Positions 44,018 to 49,918 of a stretch of DNA of 64,000 bases are shown here, one piece after another. Origin of the DNA: Mariniphaga sp. (GTDB lineage Bacteria; Bacteroidota; Bacteroidia; Bacteroidales; Prolixibacteraceae). The stretch lies in the NCBI GenBank assembly GCA_024636975.1, contig JAGXGA010000032.1, positions 1 to 64,000 on the forward strand, in the 5' to 3' direction. Both the position numbers and the translations under genes were made by a program. The notes beneath the pieces are model-generated. The model was not told the origin of the DNA, ran no database searches, and saw nothing but the letters and a program-made list of their open reading frames with translations. Numbering within the stretch: the stretch's first letter is position 1; every line of letters starts with the position of its first letter.

Positions 44018-44167
44018 TTATCTGTTATCTTCTTCGAGAATATCTTTATCTCTGGAACCTGGTTTGGTATCTCCACCACCACGAACTTTCAACATTTCGT
44101 TGCTTGTTAAAACTTCAAAACCTTTAAAATTTGCTTTTTTTTCTGAATTTGTAAAAAACCTTTTCAT
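44018..44167 (-). CDS. Double-glycine leader peptide, candidate RiPP or signal-peptide precursor
   Basis: A 49-residue peptide (ATG at 44165-44167; an in-frame GTG at 44203 is further upstream). The leader contains FEVLTSNEMLKVRGG, the LTxxEMxxVxGG pattern of Bacteroidota double-glycine precursor peptides; cleavage after GG (residue 31 or 32) would release a short hydrophilic tail (GDTKPGSRDKDILEEDNR, 18 residues) with no cysteine. Its promoter region (44209-44245) carries the same bipartite element as the sigma gene at 49384. No maturase or C39 exporter is in the window. Peptide or signal function is inferred. Confidence 0.6.
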   Translation of the reverse strand: MKRFFTNSEKKANFKGFEVLTSNEMLKVRGGGDTKPGSRDKDILEEDNR

Positions 44168-44208
44168 CGTAAATAAATTTAGTTCGTTAAACTTGAAAAA
44201 CACACATT

Positions 44209-44245
44209 CTATATATATATTCCGAAAAAAGGGAAAAGGTAACCC
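44209..44245 (-). promoter_or_regulatory. ECF-type promoter P2, driving the leader-peptide gene
   Basis: On the minus strand GGGTTACCTTTT is followed after 9 nt by CGGAATATATA and TAG. The predicted transcript start near 44209 leaves a leader of about 42 nt. It matches P1 and P3. Confidence 0.65.
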
Positions 44246-44308
44246 TCAAATTGGAAAAAAATTTAAATTATTTTAATTTGGCCGAATGAAAAATAGCATT
44301 TATTGAGC

Positions 44309-47158
44309 ATGAAGTCTTACCTGATCCTTATTACAGTCGTGTTTCTAACCCTTAACTTATATTCTAACAATCAATATATTAACGACAGCATTAATGCCTT
44401 ACAGAGCTACCGGAATGCAGCCAATCTTATTCGAAATGGGAATTTTTCCGGAGCCATCGATTCTTTAAAAATTTCTGCAGCATTACGGGAAAAATTATAT
44501 TCAAACCAGAGTTTCGATTATGGTGTTGTTCAAAATGCATTGGGAATTTCCTATAAAAATCTGGGGAACCTGGATAAAGCAATTGAGCATTTCTTATTGG
44601 CAGAAGCGGCATACAAATCATTATCATCTGAAAATGAAATGGCCATTGCCAGGCTTTACAACAACATAGGCAACATATATAAAAGTAAATTAATATTTAA
44701 AACTGCGTTAGATTATTATAATAATGCGTTAGAAATATATTCCAGATACAAACAAAATCCTGATGCTGATATAGCTGAAATATACTACAGTATAACACAT
44801 AATTATTACCTGCAAAATAATTATACTGCTGTTCTTGAAATAGTTGATGAATATTATCCTTACGCGTACGATGATACAAAAATGTATTTTTTAAGCCTAA
44901 AAGCTGCTTCGCTTAAGGAACTAAAAAGAAATAAGGAAGCCTATAAGGCTTATCAAAGTTCCCTAGAATACGTAATTGCTTATTTCTCTGAAAATGACAT
45001 TAATGTTGTTTTTGAATATCTGAGTTTTGCAAATTTCCTAATTTCAGTTGAAGATTTTAATGAAGCCAATGAAATATTATTTACAGCAGAAAAAATTTTA
45101 TCTCGAAATAAGGTTGATAATGGTGAAATTTATTTCTTATATAATAAAGCTGTTGGTTCATATTATGAGTTTTTAAAAGTTGAATCCAATGACATCGGGC
45201 AATTTATAATACAAAAAAAGTCAAATCTGGAAAAAGCGATACATTATTATCAATTAGCATTTAAAGCTATAGAACTATTTGAAAAAAATATTTCAGACAG
45301 TTCAATAGAAAATACATTGTCATTAACTTACAGTTTAAATGCCCTCAAGCTTATTGCAGACGCTTATGCCCAGATAGCTGACATCTATCACGATAATTCA
45401 GCGTTGGGAAGAAAAACAGCAATAAAGGAAGCTCTTAATTATTATGAACTAACAGCGCAAATGATACAGCAGGCCCGCAGAACTATGTATTCTGACGAAG
45501 ACAAAATTTTGCTTGCAGAACTTGAGGAAGCTACTTTCTTTAAAATGATTGAAACCGCTTACAAAGCCTATAAACTAAATCCCAGCCCTGAGATTCTTGA
45601 TTTTGCCTTTACAAGTGCCGAACGGATGAAAGCAAGTTCAGTTTTCGACAGGCTTTCCGATCAGTTTGCAAAGGAAAACAGCCTGGTACCCGACAGCCTT
45701 ACCGAACTTGAACGGGCATTGAATTACAAAGTTACAACCCAAAATGAGCTGTTATTTAATCTTCAACATAACGAAGTTCAGGATCCGGAAGAAATAGCCC
45801 GAGTTGACTCCACACTGTTCCAGTTAAAAAAACAACGTGATGAACTAAACCAGTACCTTGAGCAAAATTTTGCACAATATTATGAAATGAAGTATGCGAA
45901 TTCAATGCTCAGCATTGAAGAAATCAGTCAGAAATTAAATAGCAATGAAGTTTTGATTGAGTATGTATTAAATGAAACCGACTCCATACCAGAAGTTTAT
46001 GCCTTCTTTGTTTCTTCAGAACAATCGGTTTTTTATAAACTCGATGCTGATTCGACTTTCATTCCATCGCTGGAAGAAACCTTCAGGTTCATCTCCAACC
46101 CCGGGTATCTGTTCACCCGCAATGAAAGTTCAGTAAGCTATTGTTCTTCGGCTAATTACCTTTACCGCGTATTGCTTCAGCCATTCGAACAATTAACACT
46201 TGACAAGAAAATAACCATAATTCCAGATGCCAAATTAAGTTATCTGCCTTTTGATGCCTTGCTGACAGAAATGCCTGATACTTCAGGCATGGTAAAATTC
46301 AATACATTACCCTATGTAATACGTGACCACACCATTAACTATTCCTATTCTGCCAACCTGCTTTTCAAATTTAAAAAACAAAAAAAATCTGCAAAAAACA
46401 GGTTAATGGCTTTTGCACCTGAATACAATTCAGATACTGTTCGCTTTGATAATGAAAGTCTTATATTAATTCCTTTACCTGGTGTTCAGCGGGAAGTAGG
46501 ATTAATAGCAGATGCCGTTAAATCAAATATATTCAGGGGGAAAGAAGCAACTGAGAAAAATTTCAGGGAACATAGCGGGAGCCATGATATACTGCACCTT
46601 GCAATGCATGCTTTTATTAACGATTCATTACCGGCTTTCTCACGATTTGCATTCACTCAAAATCAGGGCACAGTTCCCGCGAATGACGGCTGGTTAAATA
46701 CTGCCGATATCTACAATCTTGATCTGAATGCCCGTCTTACAGTATTAAGTGCCTGCAATACAGGACGGGGAAATCTCAGAAAAGGCGAAGGTGTAATGAG
46801 CCTAGCCCGTGGATTTTTATATGCTGGATGTCCTTCAATTATTATGTCGATGTGGGAGGTTGAGGACAATGCCGGAACTGAAATAATGGAATCCTTTTAC
46901 AAAATTCTTAAAAAAGGCCGTAGCACCGACAATGCATTAAGGCAGGCAAAATTAATCTACCTTGAAAATGCGAACGCTCGTCTGGCCCATCCACATTACT
47001 GGTTGAGCTATGTCAGCATTGGCAGTACGAATCCACTGTTCAGAAGTTATGATTTTTACTTCTTTGGGTTGCTCATTCTTGCACTGGCAGGCATTACTGC
47101 AGATCAGATTATACATTTCAAAAGGTCCGGGAAAAGGCGTTATAAAAAAGAAAAGTAG
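44309..47158 (+). CDS. Exported TPR-CHAT protease with C-terminal membrane anchor
   Basis: A 949-residue protein; ATG at 44309 is preferred over TTG at 44303. Residues 1-20 form a signal peptide (LILITVVFLTLNLYSNN). TPR-type helical repeats cover about 25-420 (GVVQNALGISYKNLGNLDKA, ARLYNNIGNIYKSKLIFKTA). A helical linker leads to a CHAT (caspase HetF-associated with TPRs) domain at about 620-900 with the cysteine-protease dyad H767 (LAMHAFIN) and C816 (VLSACNTGRG), plus LARGFLYAGCPSIIMSMWEV. A last helix (about 916-937, FFGLLILALAGITADQIIHF) and a basic tail (KRSGKRRYKKEK) anchor it, so the protease should face the periplasm. It is divergent from the peptide gene. CHAT substrates are unknown here. 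Confidence 0.9.
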   Translation: MKSYLILITVVFLTLNLYSNNQYINDSINALQSYRNAANLIRNGNFSGAIDSLKISAALREKLYSNQSFDYGVVQNALGISYKNLGNLDKAIEHFLLAEAAYKSLSSENEMAIARLYNNIGNIYKSKLIFKTALDYYNNALEIYSRYKQNPDADIAEIYYSITHNYYLQNNYTAVLEIVDEYYPYAYDDTKMYFLSLKAASLKELKRNKEAYKAYQSSLEYVIAYFSENDINVVFEYLSFANFLISVEDFNEANEILFTAEKILSRNKVDNGEIYFLYNKAVGSYYEFLKVESNDIGQFIIQKKSNLEKAIHYYQLAFKAIELFEKNISDSSIENTLSLTYSLNALKLIADAYAQIADIYHDNSALGRKTAIKEALNYYELTAQMIQQARRTMYSDEDKILLAELEEATFFKMIETAYKAYKLNPSPEILDFAFTSAERMKASSVFDRLSDQFAKENSLVPDSLTELERALNYKVTTQNELLFNLQHNEVQDPEEIARVDSTLFQLKKQRDELNQYLEQNFAQYYEMKYANSMLSIEEISQKLNSNEVLIEYVLNETDSIPEVYAFFVSSEQSVFYKLDADSTFIPSLEETFRFISNPGYLFTRNESSVSYCSSANYLYRVLLQPFEQLTLDKKITIIPDAKLSYLPFDALLTEMPDTSGMVKFNTLPYVIRDHTINYSYSANLLFKFKKQKKSAKNRLMAFAPEYNSDTVRFDNESLILIPLPGVQREVGLIADAVKSNIFRGKEATEKNFREHSGSHDILHLAMHAFINDSLPAFSRFAFTQNQGTVPANDGWLNTADIYNLDLNARLTVLSACNTGRGNLRKGEGVMSLARGFLYAGCPSIIMSMWEVEDNAGTEIMESFYKILKKGRSTDNALRQAKLIYLENANARLAHPHYWLSYVSIGSTNPLFRSYDFYFFGLLILALAGITADQIIHFKRSGKRRYKKEK

Positions 47159-47312
47159 AATGTGTGGTTTTCAATAACGACTATGTCCGGCTTACTTCTG
47201 CGTTTTATATAAAAATGTGTGGTTTTCAATTTTAACGCGGTATAACTACCGTTAGATGCCTGCCATTAAGTAAAGAACGAAAAGAATGTGTAATTCAAGT
47301 TTAACGAACTAA
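47150..47312 (+). repeat. Three copies of a GAATGTGTGGTTTTCAA-type element after the CHAT gene
   Basis: Copies near 47158, 47213 and 47283. The same sequence (GAATGTGTGTTTTTCAA then GTTTAACGAACTAA) forms the 5' leader of the peptide gene (44166-44212, complement). The third copy keeps GTTTAACGAACTAA. Confidence 0.75.
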
Positions 47313-47313
47313 T

Positions 47314-48807
47314 CTAACGAAAGGAAAATCTGGTTTTTCTTAAAATTGTTTTAGCATCACTTGCATAATACCCTTGTCGGTTAATAATTGCCATAAGTTG
47401 CTTTCTCGCTTCTTCCTTTTCATCAAGTTTTATATAGCACAATGCTTTATACCACTCTGCTTCTTCCACAAAAATATTGTCGCCATGATCAATCACCCTT
47501 GTATACTCAGGAATTGCTTCTTCATATTTTTCAAGGTTTTGCAGTGTGGATGCTTTATAAAACTGGAAAACAAATTTTTCATCCTTTTCCTGTATGGCCT
47601 GATTGTAGAGAACAATGGCCTTTTCATATTCTCCGTTGGCAAAAAAGCTGTTTGCCTGTTGCAGCACTCCCATGTCGGAAGCCACAGTCCTTTCTGGAGC
47701 CCATTGAGGTGCCTGGAAGCAATCATCGTACGACTGACTTGTATTCCCCATGTTTTTACCCATAAAGCCGGCAAATGCAATTAAAATCACTGCAACTGCC
47801 ACACCAGCTCTCCACCAGCTGGAATATTCAATGCGGGTTTCAGGTACTATTGATCTGATTTCTTTGCTTTCCAGATCCAGTTTTACCTGGTCCAGCTTGT
47901 CTCTGAGAGTAAAAACATCTTTTTCACCAATCGATACATTCACATTTTGCCGCAGAGCAACCTCCGCTTTCAGATCTGAATTAACGTTAAGTTCAGCAAG
48001 GAATATTTTCAATTCTTCCCCCTCAAGCTCTCCATCAATGAATTGTTCTATCTGATTTTCGGTTACATTCCATGAGGTTTCAGAGACGAAAAGCCGTCCC
48101 AGTTCATTTCTCAGACTCATAATATCAGGCTCTAAAATGGCTTCTTCCATTTCCTGGTGAAGATTGACTTCCCGTTGCAAATTGCTATTGACTGCCAGTT
48201 CTTGTTCAAACCGTTCAAGTTCGTGACCAACTAGCTCTCCATTGAGGTATGCATCAATTTCTTCTGTTGAGCACTGATTACGAACGGAGGCAGAAACTTT
48301 TGAAAGTGTCTCCCGAAGATTTAAAATATCTTTTTCAAGAATGGCTTCCTCCAACCCAAAAGTTTCAAATTCTGAATCATCAAAATCATCGGAAAGTAAA
48401 TCTTCATCGGTGTTTACCACATTTTGTTCCCTGAAAAATTCATGGATGTGTTCATTTGAAACTAGCTCATGCTGATAAATATGAGCCTTGGGGAGTGAAT
48501 CGTAAAATTTCAGTAATTCTTCTGGTGAAAGGGTTTCAGATAGTTGCTGGATGTTATCAAAATCGTTAAGAAGGTCGAATGGGTTTGATTCGTTTCCTGA
48601 CTGTTTTGAAACTGTTTGGAGTTTTTCCCGTAGGGTTAGAACATCTTTTTCAGTAATTGCTGACTGAATTTCTTTTTCAAATTCTACTTCGTGCCTTAAT
48701 TCGCTATCGCGGTTCAGTTCACTTTCGAATTCAATTTTTTCGGATTGACTGAGACTGTCAAGACAGTAATCTTCAATCCATTCCAGGAGTTTTGTCTTAG
48801 GTATCAT
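47314..48807 (-). CDS. Anti-sigma factor-like membrane protein with repeated cytosolic modules and periplasmic TPRs
   Basis: A 497-residue protein (ATG at 48805-48807; TTG at 48813 adds two residues). The N-terminal cytosolic half has four related modules: about 9-64, a shortened one near 150-170, 182-238 and 252-306. Each contains an ExExELxxxxELRxEV-like helix and an acidic EKDVLTLREKL-like end, resembling anti-sigma factor domains of the zinc-finger type without the zinc cysteines. One transmembrane helix (about 331-350, WWRAGVAVAVILIAFAGF) and a periplasmic TPR region (about 380-488) follow. The start overlaps the sigma gene by 11 bp, typical for sigma/anti-sigma pairs. The TPRs would face the same compartment as the CHAT protease. 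Confidence 0.8.
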   Translation of the reverse strand: MIPKTKLLEWIEDYCLDSLSQSEKIEFESELNRDSELRHEVEFEKEIQSAITEKDVLTLREKLQTVSKQSGNESNPFDLLNDFDNIQQLSETLSPEELLKFYDSLPKAHIYQHELVSNEHIHEFFREQNVVNTDEDLLSDDFDDSEFETFGLEEAILEKDILNLRETLSKVSASVRNQCSTEEIDAYLNGELVGHELERFEQELAVNSNLQREVNLHQEMEEAILEPDIMSLRNELGRLFVSETSWNVTENQIEQFIDGELEGEELKIFLAELNVNSDLKAEVALRQNVNVSIGEKDVFTLRDKLDQVKLDLESKEIRSIVPETRIEYSSWWRAGVAVAVILIAFAGFMGKNMGNTSQSYDDCFQAPQWAPERTVASDMGVLQQANSFFANGEYEKAIVLYNQAIQEKDEKFVFQFYKASTLQNLEKYEEAIPEYTRVIDHGDNIFVEEAEWYKALCYIKLDEKEEARKQLMAIINRQGYYASDAKTILRKTRFSFR

Positions 48808-49384
48808 CTTCAAGTATTTTTTTAAATTCTGTATCCTGCTTTATCCTACTAATCAAAAGTTCTTTACATTTAAACTTCCTCTTCTTTGCATATTTTTCAC
48901 CCTTGTAACCCATAATACGGGCAATTTCACTCAGCGGCACTTTCTCGAAAAATAGCTGCAATAACTTTTGACAATCGGTACTCAGGGACTTAAAATGTTT
49001 CTGGTATAAACCATACTTTTCATTTTTCTCAATCAGCTCAACCAGGCTGTCGTCATAGACATCTTCCTGGAAAGGCAGTGTATCATTTATCTTCTCCTGT
49101 TCAATTCTTCGTTGTTCAAGTTGCTTGAGCCACAAGAACCGGCAAACAGAAAATAAATATCCCTGAAAAGAACTCGTTTCGAACACTAAATCACTTTCTT
49201 TTAACTTTCGATATACGACAATTATAGCTTCCTGAAAAATATCGCTTGCATCATCTTCTGTTCCGCTGTTCTTTTTAATGAACATGTTCACTTTGTAATA
49301 GAACTGCTTGTAGATGTATTGCAATATTAAATTGTCATGTCTTAGAATCCCCTTTAGGATTTGCTCATCACTGTAATTCTTCAT
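48797..49384 (-). CDS. ECF RNA polymerase sigma factor
   Basis: A 195-residue sigma-70 family protein of the ECF type. Region 2 (about 25-90) has DASDIFQEAIIVVYRKLKE and FQGYLFSVCRFLWLKQLE. Region 4 (about 130-185) has LSTDCQKLLQLFFEKVPLSE and IARIMGYKGEKYAKKRKFKC, the helix-turn-helix for the -35 element. It is the first gene of a two-gene minus-strand operon with the anti-sigma protein (11-bp overlap). Its own promoter (49391-49427) has the GGGTTACCTTTT/CGGAT element, so it probably drives itself. Confidence 0.95.
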   Translation of the reverse strand: MKNYSDEQILKGILRHDNLILQYIYKQFYYKVNMFIKKNSGTEDDASDIFQEAIIVVYRKLKESDLVFETSSFQGYLFSVCRFLWLKQLEQRRIEQEKINDTLPFQEDVYDDSLVELIEKNEKYGLYQKHFKSLSTDCQKLLQLFFEKVPLSEIARIMGYKGEKYAKKRKFKCKELLISRIKQDTEFKKILEDDT

Positions 49385-49390
49385 GTTCGT

Positions 49391-49427
49391 CTATTATATA
49401 ATCCGATAAATTTAGAAAAGGTAACCC
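49391..49427 (-). promoter_or_regulatory. ECF-type promoter P1, autoregulating the sigma/anti-sigma operon
   Basis: On the minus strand GGGTTACCTTTT is followed after 10 nt by CGGATTATATA and TAG. The predicted start near 49391 leaves only about 7 nt before the sigma ATG. Confidence 0.7.
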
Positions 49428-49812
49428 TCATTTTAACAAAAAGTGCAAAAAAAAAATAAACAGATGTCTTAAAAATGCACTAAAAACACTAAAAAACAAA
49501 TACTTGCGCCAAATTGTAAAAATTTACGTGAACGAACAAAAATCTCATTGATTTTTTACAAAAAACAGCAAAAATAGTTTCCCTACTATAATTTTTCCGT
49601 TCCTTCTTCGGTTGCAGAATTACCATTAAGGTTTTTACCAGGCCTTTGGTGCAAACCTGAAAATTTTGCAACACATGTTAAAAAGTGACTGAATGAAATA
49701 TAATATTTCCAAATTTCCCACAATTACTTCATTGCTTATGATACTTAACTATGCTTTTATAATACTAAAAATGACAAATTCCACTTTTATTTATTTTTTT
49801 TTTCATTTTTAG
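49428..49812. other. AT-rich intergenic stretch between P1 and P3
   Basis: About 385 bp with A/T runs. A 61-codon minus-strand frame (49489-49674) has no credible product. Nothing else is seen. Confidence 0.6.
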
Positions 49813-49849
49813 GGGTTACCTTTTTCGATTTAACCGAATATATAAGTAG
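49813..49849 (+). promoter_or_regulatory. ECF-type promoter P3, in front of a short transcript
   Basis: On the plus strand GGGTTACCTTTT is followed after 10 nt by CCGAATATATA and then TAG. No gene on the plus strand follows; a terminator lies about 45-70 nt downstream. Confidence 0.65.
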
Positions 49850-49918
49850 AAGGTGCTTTTTCCTTCAATCATTAAATCAAAAAAATATTACAGGGGGGGT
49901 ATTTAATCCCCCCTTTTT
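49849..49918 (+). ncRNA. Candidate small RNA of the ECF regulon
   Basis: The region from the predicted start of P3 to a GGGGGG/CCCCCC hairpin with five T is about 70 nt. It has no ATG (a GTG frame would give only 17 residues). It ends at the argS stop codon, so it is antisense to little or nothing of argS. The small-RNA call is inferred from promoter plus terminator. Confidence 0.4.
49893..49918. terminator. G/C-hairpin terminator between P3 transcript and argS
   Basis: Six G and six C around TATTTAAT, followed by five T on the plus strand and a T-rich tract on the minus strand, so it may also serve argS. Confidence 0.8.

Follow-up and report, generated by a model that had tools for sequence, protein, structure and literature searches.

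A 64,000-nucleotide stretch of the genome of Mariniphaga sp. (hereafter the window) carries four neighboring genes encoding a double-glycine leader peptide, a tetratricopeptide repeat (TPR)-CHAT protease, a membrane anti-sigma-like protein and an extracytoplasmic function (ECF) sigma factor. Judged from the sequence, this gene set and the promoter element shared by its peptide and sigma genes look like a real module, mostly autoregulated by its sigma factor. From left to right the order is peptide, CHAT, anti-sigma-like gene, sigma, a gap and argS, with the open reading frames (ORFs) of the anti-sigma-like and sigma genes overlapping on the minus strand (Table 1). An earlier reading of the same DNA (the original prediction) had named these parts, and when the ORFs were read, the peptide, CHAT, the anti-sigma-like protein, sigma and a third promoter site were all found at or near the places it had given. 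Its three bipartite promoters were recovered as well, and agreed with its description in the -10 parts, in spacers of 9-10 nt and in the TAG at the end.

To describe the conservation of this gene set, profiles were built for this analysis, and CHAT homologs were found in 106 of the 140 family genomes. We examined 60 CHAT loci (the window included) out of these 106 CHAT-positive genomes, excluding locus L040, a 3-kb contig, from the family counts; kinship among the family genomes inflates the counts, and many of the genomes are fragmentary. A double-glycine peptide gene stood beside CHAT in all 53 loci whose upstream sequence was 400 nt or longer, 48 times divergent and 5 times in the same direction (the 7 loci with less than 400 nt were not counted for the peptide), and the same peptide scan upstream of cysE, rlmL, argS and ompA in these loci gave 0 hits in 80 windows. 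A sigma match was obtained in 50 of the 60 loci and an anti-sigma match in 49, some loci ending at contig ends. Gene order varied by genus and membership was mostly kept; in genus g208, the promoter motif, the peptide and the anti-sigma gene run in one direction, and sigma follows CHAT without the motif.

The promoter element was then considered in its own right. The 12-mer GGGTTACCTTTT has exactly three copies in the 64 kb, before sigma, before the peptide and at 49813. When up to two mismatches were allowed, 9 matches were obtained in the window, which is the level of shuffled sequence, and the paired promoter patterns (one matching one site, the other two) matched no further sites in the 5.76-Mb genome (G000, 95% complete). 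The pattern GGGTTACCTTTTN{6,12}GRATA was present in 83 of the 140 family genomes, and its backwards control in 1; a related strict promoter pattern occurred in 3 of 393 genomes of an order-wide sample, the window's own among them. Conservation of the -35 box calculated from sites picked by the box itself is biased and was set aside, and the figures used here come from peptide and sigma genes located independently of the box. The loose motif, GGT[ACT]ACCTTT, was located ahead of the peptide gene in 48 of 53 loci, at a distance of mostly 74-88 nt from the start codon (strict motif, 39 of 53). Ahead of sigma it was located in 27 of the 50 loci with a sigma match, 32-45 nt from the start, and the strict motif in 26 of 50, 33-46 nt from the start. 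Upstream of the control starts of cysE, rlmL, argS, ompA and CHAT, the loose motif was found in 0 of 144 cases. A chance promoter was rejected on the exact 12-mer count, the backwards control and these control starts. As a subset of the controls, the 260 nt ahead of the CHAT gene were free of such a promoter on the CHAT strand in all family loci examined, so this gene is not an obvious sigma target. At the level of genomes, the strict promoter was present in 78 of 106 CHAT-positive and 5 of 34 CHAT-negative genomes (Fisher p 1.7e-9, uncorrected for kinship, with a strict motif that misses genera having the loose form). A lack of conservation in relatives had been named beforehand as a result that would speak against the original prediction; both the gene set and the promoter were found to be conserved.

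Across the class, CHAT homologs over E 1e-35 were detected in 49 of 395 genomes, the window's own included, and 20 distant loci were examined from 17 of the 48 other CHAT-positive genomes, mostly higher-scoring matches. Sigma and anti-sigma genes lay near CHAT in 11 of these 20 loci, representing 10 genomes and six other families (L154, L155, L158, L159, L164, L166, L167, L169, L170, L171 and L172); two other genes stand in between in L164, and in L153 the anti-sigma gene is at the contig end. The double-glycine peptide was found in only two of the class loci, L154 and L155, from one other family. The sigma genes of the L154 and L155 genomes are preceded by GGTAACCTTTT...GGAATAAA and that of L170 by GGGTTACCTTTTT, while most of the remaining class sigma genes inspected by eye had no such promoter box. 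These data bear on the possibility that the genes are neighbors by shared descent only and do not work together, for cysE and rlmL likewise stay beside CHAT in many family loci. However, no cysE, rlmL or argS was found at the 11 class loci that keep sigma, anti-sigma and CHAT together, a common promoter links sigma, the peptide and remote sites, and the gene order changes between genera around a mostly constant membership, so that we consider descent alone a very improbable explanation.

Table 1 Features of the module and its surroundings in the window
Feature	Position	Strand	Details
Double-glycine leader peptide, 49 aa	44018..44167	-	leader ...FEVLTSNEMLKVRGG, tail GDTKPGSRDKDILEEDNR
Peptide 5' leader element TAGAATGTGTGTTTTTCAAGTTTAACGAACTAAA	44178..44211	-	own-leader score vs shuffles
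Promoter P2 (peptide)	44214..44245	-	GGGTTACCTTTT-N9-CGGAATATATA
TPR-CHAT protease (predicted), 949 aa, ATG start	44309..47158	+	PF12770 E 5e-55; H767/C816
Three degenerate direct leader-element copies	47157..47313	+	starts 47157, 47212, 47281; between the CHAT and anti-sigma stop codons
Anti-sigma-like protein, 499 aa	47314..48813	-	weak profile match, place, topology
ECF sigma factor, 195 aa	48797..49384	-	TIGR02937 above cut-off
Promoter P1 (sigma operon)	49395..49427	-	GGGTTACCTTTT-N10-CGGATTATATA
Promoter P3	49813..49844	+	GGGTTACCTTTT-N9-CCGAATATATA; points to the argS 3' end
Candidate small RNA, ~72 nt	49847..49918	+	5' hairpin, AATCATTAAATCAA stretch, terminator-like end beside argS

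We propose that these genes form a transmembrane signalling module of Bacteroidota, an explanation that, taken as a whole, we hold to be evenly poised. From GGGTTACC promoters, as their conserved placement suggests, the sigma factor would drive the operon that encodes it together with the anti-sigma protein, and also the peptide gene and a small number of further transcripts. The cytoplasmic part of the anti-sigma protein would hold sigma at the inner membrane, with the TPRs displayed outside according to the predicted topology. Given the conserved anatomy, these first two steps very probably describe a real shared module. The secreted TPR-CHAT protein, anchored by its C-terminal helix, is a predicted cysteine protease that would face the same space, and its most likely action would be to cut the anti-sigma protein between the membrane and the TPRs and so start sigma release; whether CHAT releases sigma by such a cut is, in our judgement, an even call. 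Last, a C39 exporter would carry the peptide out and cleave it behind the GG, and the peptide tail would meet the CHAT and TPR proteins outside, where the mature tail would either activate CHAT in a positive loop or damp it. This is the weakest step, and a role of the peptide as a CHAT ligand is put forward tentatively. A fuller peptide-signalling circuit, in which the mature tail binds the CHAT TPRs and triggers anti-sigma cleavage in a self-reinforcing or density-sensing manner, with RNA damping in part of the family, seems unlikely.

The protease assignment is based on a PF12770 CHAT domain (187 bits against a cut-off of 24), which was found once in the window genome. The predicted architecture comprises a hydrophobic N-terminus, TPRs, the CHAT domain and a C-terminal transmembrane (TM) helix with a basic tail. 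When residues are counted from the ATG at 44309, the original prediction numbered the catalytic pair H767 and C816 correctly. Both catalytic residues were present in all 79 CHAT rows covering them (one fragment does not), and an alignment of 22 proteins, with identities as low as 21%, showed H767 and C816 to be invariant; simple text patterns missed the H or C motif in some proteins, among them L076, L153, L164, L167 and L169, where the alignment shows both residues. Among the 76 CHAT proteins of at least 850 aa, an N-terminal hydrophobic stretch was detected in 64 and a C-terminal TM helix in 73 at the chosen threshold, and basic residues follow this helix in most of the CHAT proteins compared. 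Placing CHAT and the anti-sigma TPRs outside the inner membrane, as first proposed, agrees with hydropathy in most relatives, and the orientation itself is a prediction. Membership in a known anti-phage system was rejected, PADLOC giving a weak TPR match only, and the TPR matches from PDB (kinesin light chain, NprR) were too general for naming a ligand. A composition analysis gave no added information.

The sigma factor matched TIGR02937 (sigma70-ECF) with 47.7 bits against a cut-off of 42.9, and its score for Pfam sigma-70 region 2 was under the cut-off. For its partner no profile reached the cut-off (NCBIfam NF052375, 36 bits against 100, E 7e-9; zf-HC2, 16 against 22.2), so we call it anti-sigma-like on account of its place, topology and weak match. 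It has N-terminal helical modules (in a low-confidence model), which are predicted to be cytoplasmic, one TM region at residues 334-352 and C-terminal TPRs. By simple hydropathy, one TM region precedes the TPRs in the window protein and in those of relatives, and no second anti-sigma-like protein was found in the window genome at E 0.001. The linker after the TM region is often Y..YY, and 25 of 26 linkers (30 loci were requested and 4 gave no row) contain an Arg with S, G, A or T as the next residue; this Arg could be the cut site, and may as well be structural. We also considered that the peptide tail mimics the linker (R-S/S-R), and dropped the idea since by eye the feature is not shared and most g208 tails are without Arg. 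At L061 (12914), L065 (13588), L128 and L129, in the vicinity of sigma and anti-sigma, the motif is directly followed by what reads as a truncated or disrupted duplicate of the N-terminal part of sigma.

For the peptide, the search required GG, positions -4 and -7, and in part position -8. Leu at -12, which was not required, was found in 59 of 61 peptides, and Glu at -8, which was partly required, in 58 of 61. The tails are 10-51 residues long and 23% acidic overall, with no Cys in any of the 61, and they differ by genus, for example RDKDVYD in g3, ISRDLDLYVEDLD in g220 and YGIPVPIIINE in g209. The leader residues, the GG and the tail features argue for a peptide that is exported and processed. 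The window genome has a single C39 exporter, 59% identical over 732 positions to the exporter of L154; in L154 and L155, the peptide gene is divergent from CHAT and has genes for a C39 ABC exporter and an HlyD-like protein next to it downstream (the L154 C39 domain was assigned by Pfam, HlyD and the L155 exporter by reading). A peptide search of sequence records gave two close Mariniphaga matches and a third, Clostridia-type record (L007) that matched in the leader only. Some loci carry two or more peptides. Near 11500 in L070, the precursor tail is tandemly repeated (KSEDVYVPLN twice), and L068 and L071 hold a second copy of the promoter, an identical peptide tail and the anti-sigma gene, by recent duplication or an assembly effect. 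A gene with a zinc-ribbon start, insertion-sequence-like by reading only, lies between CHAT and the peptide in L154 (5202-5630) and close by in L155 (6669-7085).

These properties also have to be weighed for a secreted antimicrobial or public signal under sigma control, with CHAT serving maturation or self-immunity. Double-glycine bacteriocins of Bacteroidales are known, the bacteroidetocins, and the double-glycine leader, the C39 exporter, the varied tails and the several copies in some loci would suit such a role. The tails of the module, though, are Cys-free and often short and acidic, and are presumably unlike bacteroidetocins; no shared immunity or modification gene was noticed in the loci, where no search was aimed at such genes. 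We therefore regard an antimicrobial or public signal as quite unlikely.

In another alternative, CHAT is an output: some other signal or protease releases sigma by way of the anti-sigma TPRs, and the exported peptide or envelope proteins are the substrates of CHAT as an effector in defence or self-killing. CHAT proteins act as effectors elsewhere, and the peptide is more tightly linked to CHAT (53/53) than sigma is (50/60, and 11/20 in the class), with the caveat that some missing sigma genes may reflect contig ends. Against this stand the CHAT gene without a sigma-type promoter in its upstream 260 nt in family loci, the 17 class loci outside the family in which no peptide was found, some of which keep sigma and anti-sigma, and the PADLOC result. 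We consider CHAT as output rather unlikely.

Several observations weigh against the transmembrane module with its sigma-driven promoters. Sigma was without the motif in 23 of the 50 loci (genera g208, g209, g213, g214, g220, g222 and g225), so autoregulation is not general; in g213, the sigma of L066 scored 57 bits, compared with at least 215 bits for the other sigma matches, and is probably another sigma. In g214, the peptide ran in the same direction as CHAT and the motif was absent in all five testable loci. Eight of the 20 class CHAT loci were without sigma and anti-sigma in the stretch examined, and in L168 sigma is ~8 kb off. At class level the degenerate promoter showed no enrichment (21 sites and 25 control matches, counted by eye) and was rejected as a class-wide mark of the system. 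The claim that the module has its own promoter element thus stands before sigma and the peptide in the family, and falls short before sigma in several genera and at class level. In L194, L211 and L208, from two other families, GGTTACC/GGAATAAA precedes a small Ala-rich lipoprotein-like gene; the sigma present in these loci is a related one (E 1e-47 or better), the anti-sigma match there is weak, and no CHAT match was found within their 3 kb (peptides were not scanned there). The genus-varying peptide tails fit a ligand but also a bacteriocin. The cut sites of Craspase, a CRISPR-linked protease compared below, differ between orthologs, falling between A and S, L and D, or M and K (PMC11106740), so the linker Arg counts for little. 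The two AlphaFold models, made from three-sequence alignments, were of low confidence, with mean pLDDT values of 49.6 and 44.5, and were set aside.

The three leader-sequence copies of Table 1 lie in the CHAT direction within the 156 nt that separate the stop codons of CHAT and anti-sigma. Those at 47212 and 47281 match at 26 of 33 positions, and the copy at 47157 at 21 of 33 ungapped, a score that does not exceed those of certain chance positions of the window. In 16 of 44 loci, mostly in g1, g226 and g3, the own leader beat all 100 single-base shuffles in the sequence after CHAT, and the repeat unit resembles the leader of the same genome, e.g., GTGAATGTGTATTTAAAA in L051 and L053. Within g1, a leader from another genus matches the gap as well or better, so likeness to the own leader is no clean test of co-variation. 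Similar gap repeats of about three copies were seen in L042-L045, L047, L048, L051-L053 and L055. Since the gap carries leader copies, an anti-sigma transcript that reads through it would run antisense to the mRNA of the peptide; terminator prediction gave no site in the CHAT/anti-sigma gap of the window, and in 7 of 8 loci, L050 being the exception, the antisense duplex energies lay beyond those of all 200 single-base shuffles. The repeats could be an RNA control, shared protein binding sites or decayed copies of the peptide gene.

Relatives carry further promoter sites elsewhere in their genomes. We inspected 56 strict-site loci from family genomes, chosen from a longer list; one site is represented twice among them, and a few belong to sigma or peptide genes of the module itself on other contigs. 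A Cys-containing protein of 73-81 aa (NYYGLxFxCP...CxxKxIRQ) recurred in 11 loci (L085, L087, L091, L117-L120, L127 and L138-L140), and no Pfam family was found for the two tested; in L127, L138 and L139, argS lies within the same 3-kb locus, as at P3 in the window. A protein of 120-134 aa (AFPAHYYGMPNGKIYLVFSRFYE) followed the promoter in four loci (L102, L103, L105 and L107; no Pfam family for the one tested), and an exported-looking protein of 179-188 aa in another recurring set of four. A lipoprotein with DUF4848 (one tested) was a further recurring gene product, and many remaining strict sites had no recurring gene. At the argS side, a P3-type site convergent with argS was found in five other genomes (L098, L099, L101 and L106, with argS confirmed, and L042). 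The transcripts expected there have a conserved 5' part and a terminator-like end, with modest fold z-scores (-1.3 to -3.0), from which we conclude that P3 is a real conserved site and likely drives a small RNA. Known RNA families were rejected for this candidate, as its best Rfam matches (E 0.27 and 0.42) were below the gathering score.

Finally, the module was compared with known systems. Double-glycine peptides with C39 exporters have leaders marked by L at -12, E at -8, L or M at -7, V at -4 and GG. The module peptide is alike in leader and exporter, and differs in being tied to a TPR-CHAT/ECF locus and a sigma promoter. In proteolysis of the RseA/DegS/RseP type, a membrane anti-sigma receives its first cut outside the membrane, and sigma is then released. 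The module would follow the same membrane anti-sigma logic, with a TPR-CHAT cysteine protease in the place of DegS; this type of proteolysis is also named in the Craspase work (PMC10028731). In ECF54, an ECF sigma lies near a CHAT protein and proteolytic control has been proposed, and ECF54 is given as a case with no anti-sigma (PMC8999054); in our module, an anti-sigma-like gene adjoins sigma, so this feature of ECF54 is missing. EACC2/caspase loci bring together a caspase-type protease, an ECF sigma and a TPR protein, but the protease architecture is different and the accessible text describes no double-glycine peptide (PMC8195603).

The closest likeness is to the type III-E CRISPR system Craspase/CASP. 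There, the TPR-CHAT protein Csx29, activated by guide-RNA target binding, cuts Csx30, the inhibitor of CASP-sigma, and the two systems share a TPR-CHAT protease, a sigma inhibitor, an ECF-type sigma and sigma sites in the own locus (PMC10028731). In contrast to Craspase, the module has a CHAT protein with predicted export and membrane anchoring, an anti-sigma-like membrane protein as the inhibitor, and an additional gene for an export-tagged peptide. A 20-sequence CHAT profile matched Csx29-type chains with E 0.1-0.18, which is not significant. No Cas gene was seen among the long ORFs of 40-54 kb, those outside the module being what we take to be housekeeping genes; the genome as a whole was not searched for arrays or Cas genes. 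Membership in Craspase was rejected on the lack of Cas genes seen in the locus, the predicted export and the absence of a significant sequence match.

No published description of this module was found in the literature covered by a limited search. The comparison suggests a protease-controlled ECF sigma system that senses the outside, with a new place for the protease and an added peptide. If this is true, the module would be an extracytoplasmic, CRISPR-free counterpart of the Craspase logic in several Bacteroidota families, and the CRISPR version might then be viewed as a particular application of a broader protease-sigma design. It would also provide a new kind of first-cut protease for ECF sigma factors and a conserved set of export-tagged peptides with a testable role, and would make the role of membrane CHAT proteins in Bacteroidota directly testable.

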